NCBI RefSeq assembly: GCF_009901525.1
Contig: NZ_CP019288.1
Location: 4,493,501 to 4,557,500, forward strand
Origin: Kordia antarctica
GTDB taxonomy: Bacteria > Bacteroidota > Bacteroidia > Flavobacteriales > Flavobacteriaceae
Direction of reading: 5' to 3'
DNA length: 64,000 bases
Part shown: in pieces, positions 41,547 to 52,531 of the stretch
Layout: each line of letters starts with the position of its first letter
How positions within the stretch are numbered: the first letter of the stretch is position 1
Position numbers and translations under genes: made by a program
The notes under the pieces: model-generated
Database searches by the model: none
Told to the model about the DNA's origin: nothing
Seen by the model: the letters and a program-made list of their open reading frames with translations, nothing else

Positions 41547-41714
41547 ATGAAAAAAAGAAATTTCAAGAAAATTAGCCTAAACAAAAAAATAATTTCAAAC
41601 TTAAAAGCAGGAACTGTAAAAGGTGGAGCGCCATCTCAGCGATGTAGCGATGTATACTACGAAGATGATGACGGAATGATTATTTGCTGTACTTTTCAAG
41701 GACACGGATGTTAA
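41547..41714 (+). CDS. GG-leader RiPP precursor (lanthipeptide-like), 55 residues
   Basis: The gene is too short to stand out but its frame is clean from ATG to TAA. The leader reads MKKRNFKKISLNKKIISNL and ends at a double glycine (KGGAPS, residues 25-30). It matches the LNKK.xSNL...GG leaders at 50.9 and 51.2 kb. The core is acidic, with Cys33, adjacent Cys47-Cys48 and a terminal Cys55, plus Ser and Tyr residues. Such peptides are usually modified by LanB/LanC-type enzymes and cut after GG during export; none of these enzymes is in the window. A palindrome lies upstream and a strong terminator downstream. Confidence 0.75.
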   Translation: MKKRNFKKISLNKKIISNLKAGTVKGGAPSQRCSDVYYEDDDGMIICCTFQGHGC

Positions 41715-45383: not shown

Positions 45384-45989
45384 TCATAATGGAGTATTTA
45401 TTTTTTTATAATGTAGACATTCGTCAGAAGCGCTACCTGCGGCGAAAAAGAAGACAGAACCAATACTTTTTATAAAATGATTAATCATTAAATCACCTTT
45501 ATGAGAGACACCAATTCGGAGTTTTTTATGATAAACACTTTCGAAAATAAACGGAACTCCTTTTCGTTTTTTTTCTTCCAATTCGATTAAATGAATAAAG
45601 CCATCATTTCTCAATTCCATATTCATTGTAATAGTTGCAAACACATTATTTTTGTGCTCTTCTTCTCTAAAGATAAATTGGATTTTAGTGTCTGATACTA
45701 TACTTATATCAACTACATACGGAGTAAATGTATGCAAAGCTATTTCCTGTTCTAATATAAAATGTGCAACCGTAGATTCGTTTTTTCTTGTGCCTGTATA
45801 TACAGTTTTTGAGTGCGAATTTATTCTCTTAGAAAAGTTAAGTTGATAAGTTCCGTCAATTTTGTGAATGGTATTCTGAGTAAGTGCAATACTGTCTTTT
45901 TTTGAAATTTTATTTGTAAATGATGCGCCACAACTTGACAAACATGCAATTGAAAGTACTATTACAATGATGAGATTTATTTTTTTCAT
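45384..45989 (-). CDS. Small lipoprotein, unknown function (tandem copy 2)
   Basis: The 201-residue lipoprotein has signal MKKINLIIVIVLSIACLSSC (Cys20). It overlaps the gene before it by 4 bp (ATGA). The two share a layout: lipobox, IDGTY / INGLY segment, LK-type strands with KIQFIF / KIKITYL, and DGFIHL / DGYLYL. They are therefore diverged tandem paralogues. No family name was recognised. Confidence 0.8.
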   Translation of the reverse strand: MKKINLIIVIVLSIACLSSCGASFTNKISKKDSIALTQNTIHKIDGTYQLNFSKRINSHSKTVYTGTRKNESTVAHFILEQEIALHTFTPYVVDISIVSDTKIQFIFREEEHKNNVFATITMNMELRNDGFIHLIELEEKKRKGVPFIFESVYHKKLRIGVSHKGDLMINHFIKSIGSVFFFAAGSASDECLHYKKINTPL

Positions 45990-46576
45990 AATATTGATTG
46001 TATTTTTTCATACGTACGTCTATATCTCCATGTTTTCCATGATAAAAAGCCAACACCGCCAATGGCACCTGAGCGATGATTATAAACATCAAATACTAAA
46101 TTTTCATCTTTGTCTAATGTCAATCGCGTTCTTTTCACATCAACGGCGCCAAAAACGTATGGAATTAACACGAAACCGATATTCTTATTTTTTAGATACA
46201 AATAGCCATCTTTTTTAAGTTTCGTTTTTAGGAAGCGTTCTCTAAATATGACATCATTTTCAAGATACGTAATCTTTATTTTTTTCTTATTAATAATCTT
46301 TAGTTCAAATGTATAGTTTTTTGCACTATCAATTTGCAAGGTATCTTTTAAAAGCTTTCTGTCTATTTCTCGTAAAAAATTATTTCCAGTCCAAAAAAGT
46401 TTTGAAGGATATAATTCAGAAAGGCTATCAAATCCCATTTCTTCAATATCATACAGACCATTTATATTGTTTAAACTGTTTTTTTGCAAGCGATTTGGAT
46501 TCTTCAAGTTTTTATCAAATACGCCACAACTTGTCAAACAAATGGCGACAATAACTACTAATAGTATTTTTTTCAT
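45986..46576 (-). CDS. Small lipoprotein, unknown function (tandem copy 1)
   Basis: The 196-residue lipoprotein has signal MKKILLVVIVAICLTSC (Cys17). It is first of the two-gene overlapping pair with the paralogue at 45384. The mature part has INGLYDIEEMGFDSLSEL near the N-terminus and a Gly-rich IGGVGFLSW near the end. Function is unknown; lipidation suggests a membrane-anchored periplasmic role. Confidence 0.8.
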   Translation of the reverse strand: MKKILLVVIVAICLTSCGVFDKNLKNPNRLQKNSLNNINGLYDIEEMGFDSLSELYPSKLFWTGNNFLREIDRKLLKDTLQIDSAKNYTFELKIINKKKIKITYLENDVIFRERFLKTKLKKDGYLYLKNKNIGFVLIPYVFGAVDVKRTRLTLDKDENLVFDVYNHRSGAIGGVGFLSWKTWRYRRTYEKIQSIL

Positions 46577-46681
46577 AATAAATCATTTTTGAATTATAGC
46601 TCAAATCTATTGCAATAATTACAAGTAAAATCGTTGGAATAGCAATTGAGAAACTTTATTTTTGTGAAAATCGCAAATCAT

Positions 46682-47644
46682 ATGCAAGAATTCTTTCTAT
46701 CAAAATTAAAAGACGCGTTACCCGCGAATGTTTCCTTAATAGATACCGTAGCGGAAATACTCGACATCAGTTACGATGCCGCGCACAGACGCACAAGCAT
46801 GAAAAGCAAATTGTCGTTGGAAGAAGCGGTAAAACTTTCTCGTCATTTTAATATGTCTATCGATCAGTTGTATGAAATTGGTTTGCAAAATGTCATTGCT
46901 GTAGAGAAAACTCAAATGATTAAATCGCAAAAAGACTTAGAAACGTATTTTTTGGCTTCGTATGAAAATATTCAAAAATTGCTAGCGATGGAAGATTCTG
47001 AAATCATTTATTCCGCAAAAGATTTACCAATATTTTATACAGCTTCCGACAATGTGTTATCACGATTCAAAATGTTTGTTTGGTTGCAATTATTAAGCGA
47101 AGAACAAAAAGTACTTACTTTTGAAAACTTTGCACCTTCGGTTTCGTTGGTTTCAGAAGCTTCTCGTTTGGGAGAATTATATTCAAATTTGAATGTAACC
47201 GAAATTTGGGATGTAACTACAATTAACAGTACGTTGAAGCAAATTCATTATTATTACAAAGCTACATTACTCACGGAAAAAGTGGCGTTGAATTTGTGTG
47301 ATGATTTAAAAGAACTCTTGGAAACGATTGAAAATAAAGTCGCGAATGATGTACAATACAAATTATATTACAATGAATTGTTGCTGATGAATAACTCGGT
47401 AATGGTAAAAACGCCGATTATAAAAACGTTATTCGTTGCGTATACAATTTTGTCGTATTACAAAACAAGCGATACAGAAACATTGGCACAAGTTGATGAA
47501 CATTTACAACGACAAATGCGGAATTCAAAACTACTATCTACTGCAGGAAAAAAAGAACAACGTATCTTTTTCAATAAAATGTATAAAAAAATTGAAGCGT
47601 TAAGGCATTTGATACAAGCGGAAAATGTATTGGATTTTGAGTGA
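46682..47644 (+). CDS. Helix-turn-helix transcription factor-like protein
   Basis: The 320-residue protein, started at ATG 46682, gives MQEFFLSKLKDALPANVSLIDTVAEILDIS. A TTG at 46646 would add 12 residues without support. The N-terminal 75 residues look like a Cro/C1-type HTH (LIDTVAEILDISYDAAHRRTSMKSKLSLEEAVKLSRHFNMSIDQLYE). The remaining ~240 residues are mostly helical with no named domain. It stands alone, divergent from the tandem lipoproteins, which it could control by position. Confidence 0.75.
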   Translation: MQEFFLSKLKDALPANVSLIDTVAEILDISYDAAHRRTSMKSKLSLEEAVKLSRHFNMSIDQLYEIGLQNVIAVEKTQMIKSQKDLETYFLASYENIQKLLAMEDSEIIYSAKDLPIFYTASDNVLSRFKMFVWLQLLSEEQKVLTFENFAPSVSLVSEASRLGELYSNLNVTEIWDVTTINSTLKQIHYYYKATLLTEKVALNLCDDLKELLETIENKVANDVQYKLYYNELLLMNNSVMVKTPIIKTLFVAYTILSYYKTSDTETLAQVDEHLQRQMRNSKLLSTAGKKEQRIFFNKMYKKIEALRHLIQAENVLDFE

Positions 47645-47698
47645 TTTTTGGACTCGCTTTGCTTTTGGAATGTTGGTATCGCTGTCGCTCTTGGAAAC

Positions 47699-47810
47699 GG
47701 CTTCGCCTTTAGTATCGCTGCGCTCTTGGTATTTTGGTATGTGAATTTTTTACATATTAGATAAACTTATAAACCTTTCAACTCTTAAACTAAAATTCTA
47801 CTTTAGGATT
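47699..47810. repeat. ~112-bp direct repeat, left copy, bracketing the RiPP island
   Basis: Begins GGCTTCGCCTTTAGTATCG and ends near CTTTAGGATT. It matches 51888-52000 with roughly nine in ten bases identical. Copies are about 4.2 kb apart and enclose the peptide cassette. Confidence 0.8.
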
Positions 47811-48127
47811 GTTTGACAGGCTACGCTGTTACTAAATTCTGATTATAAATACATTCTCTTCTTTTTCTGTATTCTAAGTTTTGCAGTTGATGTCCAATCA
47901 TAAAACAAAGTTATAGTCAGTTTAGAAACTGTATGAAAGAGTTATGAAGAAAGAGATATGGTAAGAGTAAAACTATTAAATGAATTAGTGTATTCGTATT
48001 ACAGAGTCAAGATGAGTTCAATACTAATAAAACTTGATAATATTTAGATCAATCATAAATACTAGCCGATACTTTACAATTTAAAAAAGGAAAAGGTATA
48101 TACTACCGAAGACTCAGTATACTAAAA

Positions 48128-48162
48128 CAGGATTAAATTATAACTAATTTAATCCTGAGTTT
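48128..48162. terminator. Bidirectional terminator at the end of the minus-strand precursor genes
   Basis: CAGGATTAAATTA (48128-48140) pairs perfectly with TAATTTAATCCTG (48145-48157), with T-runs on both strands. It would end transcripts from the two minus-strand precursor genes. Confidence 0.85.
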
Positions 48163-48192
48163 TTAAAACTTATACAGTTTGTGAGATGTTCC

Positions 48193-48245
48193 CATTTAAG
48201 GATAAAACATTACCCGTCACATTCATTAGTTTCAGCAAAACCTTC
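48193..48245. repeat. 53-bp tandem duplication covering precursor 3' ends, copy 1
   Basis: Begins CATTTAAGGATAAAACATTA and matches 48393-48445 at an offset of exactly 200 bp, with about three mismatches. It covers the stop codon and last codons of the 46-residue precursor. Confidence 0.8.
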
Positions 48246-48350
48246 CAATGTTCTTGTTCCACCATTTGTTCCTCCTTTAATTCTATAAAGTTTAATAACT
48301 GAGACAGTTTTTTTGTTTAAATTAAGTGGCTTTAAATTCTTTGTTTTCAT
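48210..48350 (-). CDS. Short GG-leader RiPP precursor, probable truncated copy, 46 residues
   Basis: The gene is very short but clean from ATG to TAA. The leader MKTKNLKPLNLNKKTVSVI ends at KGG (residues 25-27). The core is only TNGGTRTLEGFAETNECDG, with one Cys. It shares its last 20 or so residues and its 3' flank with the larger precursor at 48410, lying exactly 200 bp away in the non-coding flank. It therefore looks like an internally deleted duplicate. Whether it is expressed is unknown. Confidence 0.65.
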   Translation of the reverse strand: MKTKNLKPLNLNKKTVSVIKLYRIKGGTNGGTRTLEGFAETNECDG

Positions 48351-48392
48351 AATGTTTAAAATTTAATTTTTAGAAATATACAAAATTCACTT

Positions 48393-48445
48393 CATTTAAG
48401 GATAAAACATTACCCACCACATTCATTAGTTTCGGCAAAACCTCC
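48393..48445. repeat. 53-bp tandem duplication covering precursor 3' ends, copy 2
   Basis: Partner of 48193-48245, covering the 3' end of the 83-residue precursor. Confidence 0.8.
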
Positions 48446-48661
48446 TGTTACATTTCCTAGTGTTTTTGTTCCACCATTTGTTGTTTGACAGCTAGTACCA
48501 AAAGGGTCTTCGGTTTCTCTTGGTGGGCAAGTAAAAGTGTCTGGCAAACAATTATTAATAACAGTTTGCTGATAGCTAACTGGTTGATTGTTTCCACCTA
48601 AAATCATGCTCAAATTGTTAATCTTAGCGATTTTGATTTTTTTAAACTTTAAATTTTTCAT
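48410..48661 (-). CDS. GG-leader RiPP precursor (lanthipeptide-like), 83 residues
   Basis: The leader MKNLKFKKIKIAKINNLSM ends at LGG (residues 21-23). The core is rich in Thr, Ser and Cys: NCLPDTFTCPP, TSCQTTNGGT and NECGG give four Cys. The CLPDTFTC segment resembles GCPDTFLNTC in the precursor at 50.9 kb. Modification and export genes are absent here, so processing must use enzymes elsewhere. A 22-bp palindromic site lies 70-91 bp upstream of its start, between it and the AraC-type regulator. Confidence 0.75.
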   Translation of the reverse strand: MKNLKFKKIKIAKINNLSMILGGNNQPVSYQQTVINNCLPDTFTCPPRETEDPFGTSCQTTNGGTKTLGNVTGGFAETNECGG

Positions 48662-48730
48662 AATGCGAATTATTTGTTTTGTTATCTATGGCAAGATGAG
48701 AAATCTTTTTAAAATCTGCTAATTGTTTAA

Positions 48731-48752
48731 TTGATGCTTTATAAAACATCAA
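48731..48752. promoter_or_regulatory. 22-bp palindromic candidate operator, copy 1
   Basis: Half sites TTGATG and CATCAA enclose CTTTATAAAA, and the symmetry extends outward one more base pair as AATTGATG / CATCAATT. It matches the tandem pair at 50634-50677. It lies upstream of the minus-strand precursor genes. Confidence 0.6.
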
Positions 48753-48761
48753 TTTTGTATG

Positions 48762-50471
48762 TCATTGATTATTAATGCTTTTGATGTAATGTGAAGGAAG
48801 CATTTTTGTTTGCGCTTTAAAGGCTTTAGAGAACGTTTCTTGGCGTTTAAAACCAAACTCTTCAGCAATTGCCTTGATGGTATATGCTCTTAATTTCTGG
48901 TCATTTCTTAAGCGAATTAGTGCAGCGTTGATTCGTAATTCGGTAAGGTAGGATGTAAACGGTTTTTCTTTATAGGTATTAATCACATTTGATAAATAAG
49001 ATGTATTGGTTTTTAACTTTTTGGCAACAAATCCTAAGGTGCAATCTTGTCGTAAGTAATATTTTTTTTCCTCAAAAGTTTTCAAACCTTCTAAAATTTC
49101 CAATACACTTTCATCTGTAATCACCGAAGTTGTCGTTTTTACTAGTTGCGATTCGGTTTTAGATTGCTCCAACGCATCTATAGTTTGTAATAGCTCTTGA
49201 AAGCGTTTTTTAGCTTGTTGTTGTTTTTTTCTGTATAAGAAGAAAAATAATAGTAATGATAGAATCAAAACCCCAGAGATACTATACCATAAAGTTGCAC
49301 GACTTTTTTGTTGTTGCCCATAATCATCTAAAGATTCTATTTTTTCTTTTAAAGGTACTATGTCGTTTTTTATGTGTAGTTCATTATTTACTATTACATT
49401 GATACTATCGTATTTCTGGTCAAACGTTGCAGCTAATTTTTGGTTTTCAAGACTCTTTTCTTTGTCACCTATTTTTGTGTAGCAAATACCTAAGGAGTGA
49501 TGCACTTCTTTTAGTTCGGGGAATTCAAAATCTTCTTTTGCGGTAATTACTTTAATTTTTTCAAAATACTTAATAACACTATCGCATTCCTGTAATTGTA
49601 GGTAATTTTTACCTAAATAAAGGTAAGATGTTGTTAGATATTGTCGATCACCAAACTCTAAAATACCATGAATTAAAGAATTTATATGATTGATACTTAT
49701 TTTATATTTTTTCTGTTGAAAGCTAATAATAAATTTACTAACAGAATTATAAATATACAAATCTTGAAATTTTTTAAAAGAAGTTTTTTGTAATGCTTCA
49801 TTAGCATATAATTCAGCATTTTTATAATCTTGCATTTTTAAATACGTATCTGAAAGAAAACTTAGACTTTTAATTTCAAGGCGTTCCAAATCACTACTTT
49901 TTTGCTGACGAATTAATTCTAAATTTTCAGTAAATATTTGCACTGCTTCTTTTAGATCATTAGTTTGTTTTTTTAGAAAACCTATGTTGTGATTTATATT
50001 TAAAATAGCATTAATACTGCCCATACTTTTCGCAATATCTTTTGCTGATAAATATTGATCAGTAGCATTTTTATAATCTCCCTTTAATGAAAAAATATTC
50101 CCTTTTAGAACAATATTCTTTAAGATTAAAGAGTCACTATTTATTTTTTTTGCAATAGAAAGCGAATTTTCCACATGTTTAAAAGCATCATCATTGTCAT
50201 TTAATGATTGAGCTATAAAAGCTTTTCTAAATAGAGCTTCCCCAATTTTCCTGTCATCTTTAGTCATTTGAACTTTAACATAGAGCTCATCTGCATATAT
50301 TTTAGCCTTTTTAGGATTGTTATATCTATAAACCAAATACAAAGAATCTAAATCTTCATACGATTTCTGCGCTAAAGAATCTGATTGTGCATACAGCATT
50401 GAAAAGTTACAAAAGAGTATAAATAATAAAACTCTTTTAAGAATATTAGGGGATGGTTGACTATTAAACAT
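48762..50471 (-). CDS. TPR-transmembrane-AraC transcription regulator
   Basis: The 569-residue protein has an N-terminal signal or anchor (VLLFILFCNFSMLYAQ) and tetratricopeptide-like helices over about residues 30-370. A membrane helix follows near 393-412 (ATLWYSISGVLILSLLLFFFLY), then a coiled linker. A C-terminal AraC-type HTH (about 465-565) includes LGFVAKKLKTNTSYLSNVIN and EFGFKRQETFSKAFKAQTKMLPSHYIKS. This one-component layout places TPRs outside and the HTH inside the cell. It lies between the two pairs of precursor peptide genes, and 22-bp palindromes flank it on both sides; it is the likely local regulator. Confidence 0.85.
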   Translation of the reverse strand: MFNSQPSPNILKRVLLFILFCNFSMLYAQSDSLAQKSYEDLDSLYLVYRYNNPKKAKIYADELYVKVQMTKDDRKIGEALFRKAFIAQSLNDNDDAFKHVENSLSIAKKINSDSLILKNIVLKGNIFSLKGDYKNATDQYLSAKDIAKSMGSINAILNINHNIGFLKKQTNDLKEAVQIFTENLELIRQQKSSDLERLEIKSLSFLSDTYLKMQDYKNAELYANEALQKTSFKKFQDLYIYNSVSKFIISFQQKKYKISINHINSLIHGILEFGDRQYLTTSYLYLGKNYLQLQECDSVIKYFEKIKVITAKEDFEFPELKEVHHSLGICYTKIGDKEKSLENQKLAATFDQKYDSINVIVNNELHIKNDIVPLKEKIESLDDYGQQQKSRATLWYSISGVLILSLLLFFFLYRKKQQQAKKRFQELLQTIDALEQSKTESQLVKTTTSVITDESVLEILEGLKTFEEKKYYLRQDCTLGFVAKKLKTNTSYLSNVINTYKEKPFTSYLTELRINAALIRLRNDQKLRAYTIKAIAEEFGFKRQETFSKAFKAQTKMLPSHYIKSINNQ

Positions 50472-50633
50472 ATAATAAAATTCTTGAGATTACCCAAATA
50501 TAATGAGAAATTCCATTCCATTGAAGAAGAAGAGTCACCTAAATATATTAATTAATATTTAGACGGTTTTGTGAGCATACAAAAATGTAAAAACTTACAT
50601 ATAGTGCTATATATATTATCTGCAAAAACACAA

Positions 50634-50677
50634 TTGGTACTTTATAAAAGGTCAATTGATGTTTTATAAAAGGTCAA
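50634..50677. promoter_or_regulatory. Tandem pair of 22-bp candidate operators
   Basis: Two adjacent units, 50634-50655 and 50656-50677, each TTGRT...TTTATAAAAGGTCAA, repeating with an exact 22-bp period (about two helical turns). The third copy at 48731-48752 is the most symmetric. Confidence 0.65.
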
Positions 50678-50767
50678 GTACATTCCTTTGTTTATCTGTA
50701 TTAACTTGTTTTCTTTGAATCAATAATTCATTTAAAACATGTACTGTTATGAAAGAAAATGTTTTAA

Positions 50768-50899
50768 AATTTTAAGAATGTTGAGTTAACGAAAAAGACT
50801 CATATCCAAGTTCATGAAGGTCATAACACTCAATGGTTGCAACATATTACGAAAAATGGATTAGTAAGATCAAACGAAAATATAGCTATATCACTTTAA
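50768..50899 (+). pseudogene. Possible gene remnant upstream of the precursor peptide
   Basis: A 43-codon open frame without an ATG reads ...LTKKTHIQVHEGHNTQWLQHI..., ending at TAA 50897-50899. Composition looks protein-like rather than AT-rich noise, but it is short and unrecognised. It could be a decayed gene end. Confidence 0.3.
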
Positions 50900-50928
50900 T
50901 ATTAACATTTTAATTAAAACTACAAATT

Positions 50929-51171
50929 ATGAAAAAACAAAAAATGAACGCTTTAACACTAAACAAAAAGCGAGTATCTAACTTAAACACACTTCTTGGT
51001 GGCGCACCAAACTATACGCATGCACCACAACGCACACGAGATGACAGATGTATCGTTTCTGCACATTATGGTTGTCCAGACACGTTTCTAAATACATGTA
51101 ACTTGTCTGAAGCCGGACCATCTGTATGTGCAAACTGTCCTGTAGAACCATCAGGTCCAGTAGATCTTTAA
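50929..51171 (+). CDS. GG-leader RiPP precursor (lanthipeptide-like), 80 residues
   Basis: The leader MKKQKMNALTLNKKRVSNLN ends at LLGGAP (GG at residues 24-25). The core carries five Cys (DRCIV, YGCPDTF, NTCNL, VCANC) plus Ser/Thr, suitable for thioether or disulfide formation. A shared ATATTAACATT element (50899-50909) lies before it and again before the next gene (51208-51218). Together with the shared start MKKQ, this shows the pair arose by duplication. No LanB, LanC or ABC exporter is in the window. Confidence 0.8.
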   Translation: MKKQKMNALTLNKKRVSNLNTLLGGAPNYTHAPQRTRDDRCIVSAHYGCPDTFLNTCNLSEAGPSVCANCPVEPSGPVDL

Positions 51172-51232
51172 GGCAAAATAAATTATAATCACTACTTATT
51201 TTAATACATATTAACATTCAAAATTTTAAATT

Positions 51233-51430
51233 ATGAAAAAACAAAATTTTAAGTCATTGACATTAAAAAGAAACACAGTTTCTAATCTAGATTTAGTAGA
51301 AATTAATGGAGGAATTTCTGGAGGAGCTTGTGGTTCACATGGTAACTCTGCATGCTGTCCACAATCATATGGCAACTGTAATTCAGATCAAAGAACATGT
51401 ACTGATTCAGTTGTACACTGTAATGGGTAA
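51233..51430 (+). CDS. GG-leader RiPP precursor (lanthipeptide-like), 65 residues
   Basis: The leader MKKQNFKSLTLKRNTVSNLD ends at NGG (residues 26-27), with a second GG at 30-31 (ISGGACG). The core has six Cys, including a vicinal pair in SACCPQS, and many Ser and Asn. It lies 61 bp after the 80-residue precursor, on the same strand, and is closed by a hairpin terminator. Confidence 0.8.
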   Translation: MKKQNFKSLTLKRNTVSNLDLVEINGGISGGACGSHGNSACCPQSYGNCNSDQRTCTDSVVHCNG

Positions 51431-51458
51431 TTAGAAAGTTTATACAAACTTAACAATT

Positions 51459-51486
51459 ATGGTCGGAAGAAATTTCGACCATTTTT
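51459..51486 (+). terminator. Terminator of the plus-strand precursor genes
   Basis: ATGGTCG (51459-51465) pairs with CGACCAT (51476-51482), followed by TTTTTAT. Confidence 0.75.
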
Positions 51487-51516
51487 ATTAAACAACACTT
51501 AAATTTTATATAAATT

Positions 51517-51768
51517 ATTAGTAGTGTCCGATAAAAGATATAAGACCGCTTACTTCGACTTCGCTCAGCACAAGCCGACCATAGAGCCAAGAATAAAGAC
51601 TTTATGCTAACTATTTGACAACCAGCAGTAATTTAAAATAGAATATTGTGTTTCTACCTTTTCAAAAATTGTTTTTAAAAGCAAGGTGTTGTTGCAGTAA
51701 AACACTTAGACTTCAATTATAAATAGACTTTGAGACATTTCAAATAATTTTGATCGGACACAACTAAT
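51517..51768. mobile_element. 252-bp MITE-like element or IS remnant with terminal inverted repeats
   Basis: The left end ATTAGTAGTGTCCGATAAAA is the near-complement of the right end TTTTGATCGGACACAACTAAT (51748-51768), about 20 bp with two mismatches. Ends starting with TGTCCGAT are typical of some IS families in Bacteroidetes. No transposase frame is present inside. A dispersed CTTCGACTTCGCTCAGCACAAG-like segment is included. It is probably a non-autonomous derivative. Confidence 0.65.
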
Positions 51769-51780
51769 AATTTTAGTAAT

Positions 51781-51954
51781 ATTAAAGATCCAGCACACAA
51801 ACTCGTGTTAATGGAAGCAGCACATGGTCAGGCAATTAATGATGATACAAATTTACCATGGTCGGTATTCAGTCCGGAGTTAGTCACGGCTTCGTCTATA
51901 GTATCGCTGTCGCTCTTGGTATTTTGGTATGTGAATTATTTACACATGAGATAA
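51781..51954 (+). pseudogene. Gene fragment beside the inverted-repeat element
   Basis: An open frame without a start of its own reads IKDPAHKLVLMEAAHGQAIN and NLPWSVFSPELV, protein-like in composition. It then runs into the direct repeat (codons from about 51888 on) and stops at 51952-51954. It looks like the truncated remainder of a gene whose 5' part was lost next to the mobile element. Confidence 0.45.
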
Positions 51955-52000
51955 ACTTATAAACCTATCAACTTTTAAACTAAAATTTTACTGTTAGATT
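51888..52000. repeat. ~113-bp direct repeat, right copy, bracketing the RiPP island
   Basis: Matches 47699-47810, beginning GGCTTCGTCTATAGTATCG and ending near GTTAGATT. Confidence 0.8.
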
Positions 52001-52100
52001 CGCTTCGCTTTTGGAATATCGAACAAAGAATATCGAATGTTGAAGTTTTCTGAAGAAATTTTAAATTATGAATGTTGAATTTTAAATAAAAAAATATTTT

Positions 52101-52149
52101 ACCTAATACCTAATACCTAATACCTAATACCTAATACCTAATACCTAAT
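52101..52149. repeat. Heptamer tandem repeat (ACCTAAT)7 over the apaG stop codon
   Basis: Seven perfect 7-bp units. The last reaches past the apaG stop codon (CTA at 52145-52147 on the plus strand), so length changes could alter the very end of ApaG. Confidence 0.95.
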
Positions 52150-52531
52150 TAAGCGCAAAAGGCGCACTCAATTTAAAAGTAGGAATAAAAACTCGGAACT
52201 TTTTTGTAGTTGTGAAATTCACCATATTAAAATGCCCGCGCATGGCTCCAATTGGAGACGAAAGCAACGAACCTGATTGATATGTGTGTGATTCTCCTGG
52301 TTTTAAAACAGGCTTTTTGCCAATAACACCTTCGCCATCTACAATTTCAATACTATTTAAAGCATCAAAAATTTGCCAATGTCTTGAGGTTAATTGTACA
52401 GAATCTTTACTTTGATTTGCAATCGTGATTTGATACCCAAAAGCAAAATGCATCTTGTAGTTCTTGAAGAATGTACCTTCAAAACTTGTCTCTACCGAAA
52501 TTTTTATACCTCTAGTTACCTGTTGAATCAT
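52145..52531 (-). CDS. apaG: ApaG family protein (Co2+/Mg2+ efflux protein)
   Basis: The 128-residue protein matches ApaG, an Fn3-like single-domain protein: TRGIKISVETSFEGTFFKN, FAFGYQITIANQSKDSVQL and LTSRHWQIFDALNSIEIVDGEGV, followed by GVIGKKPVLKPGESHTY and SGSLLSSPIGAMRGHFNMV. The family has been linked to cobalt/magnesium resistance, with no firm molecular role. It is downstream of the T9SS plug gene on the same strand with about 295 bp between. The stop codon falls inside the heptamer repeat. Confidence 0.93.
   Translation of the reverse strand: MIQQVTRGIKISVETSFEGTFFKNYKMHFAFGYQITIANQSKDSVQLTSRHWQIFDALNSIEIVDGEGVIGKKPVLKPGESHTYQSGSLLSSPIGAMRGHFNMVNFTTTKKFRVFIPTFKLSAPFALN

Follow-up and report, generated by a model that had tools for sequence, protein, structure and literature searches.

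The stretch analyzed here is a window of 64,000 nucleotides (nt) from Kordia antarctica (NZ_CP019288.1, positions 4,493,501–4,557,500), with a G+C content of 32.8%. It contains a cassette of four small genes, arranged as two divergent pairs around a gene for a TPR-transmembrane-AraC regulator, and the four products carry leaders with a double glycine (GG). A preliminary description of this DNA had placed four open reading frames (ORFs) here and had read them as lanthipeptide-like precursors lacking their own modification or export enzymes. All four ORFs were found where it put them, on the same strands and with ATG starts, and no such enzyme is encoded in the cassette (Table 1). The four genes are real, and their recurrence goes beyond chance. 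Three aspects go further than that description: the regulator and its neighboring peptide form a module, the module is accompanied by candidate operators, and it is linked to loci encoding LanB.

Table 1. Features of the cassette (window positions) and of the LanB locus (genome positions) of K. antarctica
Feature	Position	Strand	Remarks
GG-leader peptide 1	window 48210..48350	-	46 aa, ATG start; NF038153 E=0.11; counterparts in L089, L099, L145
Regulator-adjacent GG-leader peptide 2	window 48410..48661	-	83 aa, ATG start; divergent leader, 5 core Cys; orthologues in L088, L089, L099, L145
Operator O1 (candidate)	window 48731..48752	.	22-bp palindrome TTGATGCTTTATAAAACATCAA, 10/11 pairs; center 80 nt before peptide 2 start
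TPR-transmembrane-AraC regulator	window 48762..50471	-	569 aa; Pfam TPR and HTH_18; hydrophobic N-terminus; membrane segment ~392-415
Operator copy O2a (candidate)	window 50634..50655	.	TTGGTACTTTATAAAAGGTCAA; 2 mismatches to pattern
Operator copy O2b (candidate)	window 50656..50677	.	TTGATGTTTTATAAAAGGTCAA; 1 mismatch; 262 nt before peptide 3, 195 nt before regulator
-7 box candidate	window 50710..50717	+	TTTCTTTG; 1 mismatch to TANNTTTG; 43 bp from O2b center; points to peptides 3 and 4
GG-leader peptide 3	window 50929..51171	+	80 aa, ATG start; Cys-rich core; NF038153 E=0.0084
GG-leader peptide 4	window 51233..51430	+	65 aa, ATG start; Cys-rich core; NF038153 E=0.19
C39-ABC	genome 3733736-3735946	+	LanB locus
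HlyD	genome 3735948-3737342	+	LanB locus
GG peptide	genome 3737609-3737872	-	LanB locus
Regulator paralogue	genome 3737961-3739772	-	LanB locus; closest paralogue of window regulator, 54%
LanB_C	genome 3740293-3741198	-	LanB locus
LanB_N	genome 3741191-3743446	-	LanB locus
LanC	genome 3743457-3744674	-	LanB locus

Each of the four peptides starts with a basic MK segment and has a GG, after which Ser/Thr and Cys residues follow, as originally described. The LNKK/LKR..VS segment, also ascribed to all of them, is present in three, the leader of peptide 2 being divergent (MKNLKFKKIKIAKINNLSMILGG). NF038153, the NCBIfam profile of the class I lanthipeptide leader, scored 16.3, 12.7, and 11.9 bits for three of the cassette peptides. 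Peptides 1 and 2 have a common C-terminal core stretch (TNGGT.TL...GFAETNEC.G), and this likeness is also seen in three other Kordia loci (L089, L099, and L145).

The regulator together with peptide 2 was found again in four Kordia loci, these three and L088, each of which has a second leader peptide downstream. A divergent NF038153-type peptide lies upstream in L089 and L099, that of L099 being similar to peptide 4, and the upstream sequence of L145 is too short to tell. In L088, two GG peptides of another leader type (MKTSLF.KKEITKKEAG.I.GG) stand at the place of peptides 3 and 4; one of the two was scanned and had no NCBIfam match. When all five adjacent-peptide copies were compared, the ratio of nonsynonymous to synonymous differences (pN/pS) was 0.10 for the leader and 0.42 for the core, as compared with 0.52 for the TPR and 0.12 for the HTH domain of the regulator. 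The leader is thus the most constrained part of the adjacent peptide, and the core is constrained about as much as the TPR domain.

The claim that a TPR-membrane-AraC gene separates the pairs was borne out by Pfam, by the membrane segment, and by an AlphaFold model (mean predicted local distance difference test score, pLDDT, 88), in which a TPR solenoid is followed by a long helix, which contains the membrane segment, and by an HTH at the C-terminus. Peptide 2 begins 100 nt downstream of the regulator gene. An internal hydrophobic segment was present in 79/79 regulator relatives scanned, and members of the family are 544–608 amino acids (aa) long. Among the best 80 of 174 relatives in public genomes, the nearest (79% identity) comes from a Kordia metagenome-assembled genome. 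In one Aquimarina relative, the regulator reading frame holds an in-frame stop codon.

Counting the window regulator, the K. antarctica genome encodes 21 full-length paralogues. Judged by eye, 19 have a GG peptide downstream on the same strand (the exceptions are 1332818 and 3670619); a strong leader lies within 1 kb of 13 of the 21, or of 17 when weaker leaders are counted, while random placement gives 1.3. The best 80 of the 174 public relatives yielded 78 loci, and in 61 of these a leader ORF of more than 8 bits lies within 300 nt of the regulator (43/45 in Kordia, 18/33 in other genera), compared with 28 of the 285 remaining long ORFs in these loci (Fisher 9e-32). The regulator and a GG-leader peptide are therefore a recurring two-gene module, whose adjacent peptides form a divergent subclass with weaker leader scores. 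In two Flavobacterium loci (L161 and L165), about 10 and 16 leader-like ORFs, respectively, are arrayed around a related regulator.

Between the stop codon of the regulator and the start of the peptide lies a 22-bp palindrome of the form arm-TTYATRAA-arm'. In a set of 80 modules (63 from the fetched loci and 17 from K. antarctica), TTYATRAA was centered 75–90 nt before the peptide ATG in 58, where shuffled sequences gave a mean of 1.4 and a maximum of 6 (200 shuffles). At the same distance, such sites occurred 14 times before 110 non-adjacent leaders, while 10 of 506 ORFs of other kinds were preceded by one. The arms vary together: the covariation score was 0.423, compared with no more than 0.102 when the partners were slid and 0.158 when they were shuffled (47 of 60 motifs), and over all 60 motifs 4.78 of 7 arm pairs were complementary, compared with 2.67 after shuffling, a value that 0 of 5000 shuffles reached. 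A plain palindrome search (at least 10/11 pairs) was positive for 6/21 K. antarctica modules and for 11/364 control windows behind stop codons (Fisher 1e-4). A spaced pattern, TTGAY-N-RTCAA, was also tried and discarded, as its matches by itself were for the most part due to chance.

The palindrome also has a fixed place relative to a promoter box. With up to one mismatch, TANNTTTG starts 42–46 bp from the palindrome center in 35 of the 58 modules, 23 of them at exactly 43 bp; in the shuffled control the best five-base window held 16, and a box this weak arises by chance somewhere in most stretches (36.5/58 shuffled). Among ten independent promoters, the box (up to one mismatch) was at 43–44 bp in four and, one helical turn further out, at 52–53 bp in another four, the latter being no more than suggestive. 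Sites upstream of non-adjacent leaders had a box at 42–44 bp in 12/43 cases (background 59/782). In Flavobacterium psychrophilum, the -7 box occupies positions -12 to -5 and the median 5' untranslated region is 24 bp (PMC9723704). By that measure, the start codon would be close to +24 and the palindrome center close to -55.

These positions bear on whether the palindrome acts in DNA or in RNA, where it would follow the regulator gene as a hairpin, an attenuator, or a terminator. Its location directly after the regulator stop codon and the hairpin-like covariation of its arms would suit an RNA element. On the other hand, its fixed place upstream of the -7 box puts it outside the peptide transcript, copies occur also upstream of the regulator and of remote peptides, all 11 pairs are kept, including the central ones that a hairpin loop could not use, and an Rfam scan of window positions 46000–52500 gave zero matches. 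We consider a role in RNA very improbable; the palindrome is likely the operator of the regulator.

In the whole K. antarctica genome, the operator pattern had 26 matches, compared with 7 for the reversed pattern. The only two perfect ones are O1 and a site in the LanB locus described below, and these two together with O2a and O2b are the four best matches besides an operator-like site at 3444544–3444565, which has two mismatches to the pattern. Remote peptides bear sites fitting other regulators; for example, the site before the remote peptide 591448 has 21/22 bases of the operator of regulator 344440. Sites upstream of the regulator were also present in L088, L089, and L099, in tandem in the first two, and a match of at least 16/22 within 700 nt upstream occurred in 13/54 modules, which is a raw count.

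A search of the genome for LanB, LanC, or peptidase-ABC genes and for further copies of the leader had been recommended in the preliminary description, and all were found. In the K. antarctica genome (5,500,985 bases), NF038153 gave 87 matches at E<=10, 20 of them above the cut-off. A second leader profile, built from 72 of these leaders, gave at least 143 matches at E<=1 and at least 126 at E<=1e-3, in 81 clusters; as 150 of 248 candidates were scored, these are lower bounds. In 86 of the first 87 matches (one long non-leader ORF was excluded), the leader ends in GG in 76 and the core contains Cys in 85; the medians per core are 4 Cys and 7 Ser/Thr, whereas the leaders have 1 Cys per 2309 residues in total. 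Profile searches of the whole genome gave a single LanB-N match, a single LanC match, and three C39 matches. The genes for LanB-N, LanC, a C39 peptidase-ABC, and an HlyD-like protein share one locus, 0.8 Mb from the cassette. The product of the LanC gene has the Cys and Cys-His motifs of LanC. The locus also contains a regulator whose peptide and palindrome are arranged as in the window cassette. Beside its LanB_C gene, a leader-like frame with a Cys-bearing core but no in-frame ATG (L054, 3740058–3740117, minus strand) may reflect a disrupted gene or a mistake in sequencing; in other Kordia (L093 and L094), roughly the same position is occupied by an intact leader peptide.

The order LanC-LanB-regulator-peptide-HlyD-C39 is found in nine other Kordia loci, each with at least one Cys-rich peptide bearing the common leader. 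In three Flavobacterium loci, LanB, LanB_C, the regulator, and a Cys-free peptide follow one another, with a C39-ABC in two of the three. The association was also evident across the family, in 299 evenly drawn genomes of Flavobacteriaceae (leader E<=0.01; regulator profile E<=1e-60), among which 32 had LanB, 20 the leader, and 89 the regulator; homologous leaders were abundant in K. antarctica itself and in the fetched loci. In this search, up to 25 leader candidates were scored per genome, so that copy numbers are not comparable with those of K. antarctica. LanB was present in 18/20 leader genomes (the exceptions are G161 and G173) and in 14/279 others (Fisher 2e-18, relatedness ignored). The regulator was encoded in 29/32 LanB genomes, compared with 60/267 genomes without LanB, and was within 4 kb of LanB in at least 18 of the 32, with up to four matches scored per genome. 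Conversely, 32 of the 35 genomes with fetched regulator loci had LanB (27/30 outside Kordia, L152 left out). The regulator thus regularly belongs to LanB loci in many flavobacteria, and the cassette in the window is an enzyme-free satellite, probably one of about 19 copies of the LanB-locus module that are scattered over the genome.

We examined 15 of the 17 LanB-linked regulator loci outside K. antarctica, leaving out two of the same genus. In 14 of the 15, a GG peptide lies 72–153 nt behind the regulator, and in 10 TTYATRAA is 73–94 nt before its start (for one of them, an inner ATG was taken as the start). The whole adjacent peptides contain 0–3 Cys, and none in L166, L173, and L174. LanC was within the fetched stretch in three loci. 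In L166–L176, LanB_N and LanB_C are neighbors of the regulator and of a GG peptide poor in Cys; L180 has the same genes except for the GG peptide.

Taken together, we favor, with a probability of roughly 0.65, a reading in which the regulator would activate the peptide genes through the palindrome and the single LanB/LanC/C39 set would mature and export the peptides in trans. The regulator would sit in the inner membrane, with the TPR sensor facing away from the cytoplasm and the AraC HTH within it, and its dimer would bind the 22-bp palindrome near -55 of the peptide promoter. From this position it would probably activate rather than repress. O1 would drive peptides 2 and 1, while O2a and O2b would drive peptides 3 and 4 and perhaps also the regulator, and the variable arms would give each paralogue its own target set. 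The LanB/LanC set, 0.8 Mb away, would dehydrate the peptides and cyclize them where Cys is present, and the C39-ABC transporter of the same locus would cut after the GG and export them. We infer with good confidence that LanB and LanC modify at least some of the peptides in trans, and we hold export through C39 to be no less likely. What the sequences themselves show is the genes, the module, the palindrome with its set distance from the promoter box, and the presence of one enzyme set; binding, activation, maturation in trans, and export are inferences from these.

Several points weigh against this reading. As to the operator, TTYATRAA is missing at 75–90 nt in 22/80 modules, 7/17 K. antarctica modules included, and ten independent motifs alone gave 4.70 complementary arm pairs compared with 4.04 after shuffling, which 185/5000 shuffles reached. 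In the cassette itself, O2a and O2b are 262–284 nt from peptide 3 instead of about 80, and the -7 box of O1 is poor, the sequence at +43 being CATCTTGC. Any operator at the start of the LanC/LanB operon would be hypothetical. As to the leaders, the preliminary assignment to class I held for the type but not at full strength: the three cassette leaders that NF038153 recognizes are under its curated cut-off of 22 bits, and peptide 2 had no NF038153 match in the NCBIfam scan. As to the chemistry, 12 of the 15 other-genus LanB loci (L166–L176 and L180) have no LanC in the stretch and have peptides with 0–2 Cys, so that lanthionine formation may not be the rule; since module peptides in other genera, Flavobacterium included, can be Cys-free, it is not to be assumed for every such peptide.

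SPASM proteins are encoded in the genome as well. There are seven, including a grasp-with-spasm maturase (TIGR04193; L036, 1638210–1639277, minus strand) whose gene is separated by about 5 kb from two paired precursors of the lanthipeptide type. Such enzymes (radical SAM/SPASM or grasp-with-spasm) might modify the peptides instead, or these might stay unmodified, with the leader marking them for C39 export only, which would suit the Cys-free cores of related modules. This is improbable in view of the coincidence of leader and LanB genomes (18/20) and of the presence of LanB in the genomes of all 17 loci outside Kordia that were searched and have a leader peptide next to the regulator (L152 left out).

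A further proposal extends our preferred reading and does not exclude it. The peptide directly behind the regulator might be the ligand of the regulator: modified by LanB and exported by C39, it would bind the periplasmic TPR and switch the AraC domain on, making the pair a membrane-spanning counterpart of the Gram-positive RRNPP receptor–propeptide pairs. The fixed adjacency in 19/21 paralogues and in nearly all other-genus LanB loci is in line with this, as are the divergence of the adjacent peptides into a subclass of their own, the core motif LPDT.TCPP...CQTTN, kept in all five copies of the adjacent peptide, and the retention of the peptide even where it has no Cys. RapF, NprR, and Rap3T were among the TPR proteins matched by a profile search against the PDB, but these TPR matches are generic: by Foldseek, LGN/Pins ranked first, and NprR, Rap3T, and RapF were at ranks 29, 41, and 43. 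Two of the 21 paralogues have no adjacent peptide. Moreover, the peptide core did not track the TPR domain, the partial rank correlation being 0.09 for core and TPR given HTH, compared with 0.30 for core and HTH given TPR, and -0.04 within the K. antarctica paralogues. The expected split, with cores tracking the TPR and operator arms the HTH, was absent (arms and HTH given TPR, 0.20; arms and TPR given HTH, 0.26). This coevolution result counts against a ligand role, or at least gives it no support. We regard such a role as plausible but unproven, and put it forward tentatively. Still more doubtful is its generalization to a Flavobacteriaceae receptor family in which each TPR-transmembrane-AraC protein would sense its own LanB-modified, C39-exported peptide and drive its own and remote promoters through a private palindrome, Kordia having some twenty parallel channels served by one enzyme set.

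The cassette resembles several known systems in part. Published work on the class I lanthipeptides of Bacteroidota describes an LxLxKx5L-GG leader motif and a mining approach that limited the distance between precursor and enzyme to seven genes (PMC7268733). The Kordia peptides have in common with them the GG-ending leader, Cys/Ser/Thr-rich cores, and LanB/LanC and C39-ABC in the genome. They differ in being encoded far from the enzymes rather than in the same cluster, in leaders under the cut-off, and in the dedicated TPR-membrane-AraC module. Prochlorosins are made by one class II LanM from many dispersed precursors encoded away from it, with a common leader and variable cores. One synthetase set (one LanB, one LanC) and at least 126 dispersed precursors with a common leader were likewise found here, but the enzymes are of class I, part of the precursors are in regulator-linked modules, and modification in trans is suggested by co-occurrence only.

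For RRNPP systems (Rap, NprR, PlcR, PrgX, and Rgg), PMC10075063 gives a TPR receptor and an adjacent propeptide within 400 bp. Here too a TPR receptor with a DNA-binding domain has a small propeptide next to it, and peptide 2, of 83 aa and 100 nt downstream, is within the limits for the propeptide (10–100 aa, -60 to 400 bp). Unlike the intracellular RRNPP receptors of 250–500 aa, the regulator, of 569 aa, has an internal membrane segment and an AraC domain; the ligand role is putative, and by inspection the propeptide bears a GG leader in place of a Sec signal. In Bacteroidales clusters for ribosomally synthesized and post-translationally modified peptides (RiPPs), TPR genes were present in two clusters and pheromone binding was guessed, and the available part of that paper (PMC10352776) describes no TPR-membrane-AraC gene with an adjacent peptide and operator. 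A LanB/LanC cluster of Kordia algicida (PMC3091789) and the RiPP richness of Kordia (PMC11118758; PMC10734526) are on record. The literature searched, which covered few subscription papers, contained no account of the module, its operator, or its LanB link.

The proposed reading would connect more than 100 orphan peptide genes with a single enzyme locus of the same genome and would provide a readable regulatory code, in which operator arms are matched to regulators; with the enzyme link and the arm code, function becomes testable gene by gene. It also points to the other-genus LanB loci without LanC nearby and with Cys-poor peptides. If the adjacent peptide were the ligand, this would be a peptide-signaling architecture of Gram-negative Bacteroidota with modified peptides as signals.

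A scan for defense families gave nothing useful. Elsewhere in the window, at 41547–41714 on the plus strand, one more peptide with a leader of this family is encoded (55 aa, MKKRNFKKISLNKKIISNLKAGTVKGG...). Closer to the cassette are two small genes that overlap each other (45384–45989 and 45986–46576, minus strand); their products resemble lipoproteins, and their Pfam matches are all below threshold. The gene next to them, at 46646–47644, has a weak match to an HTH.

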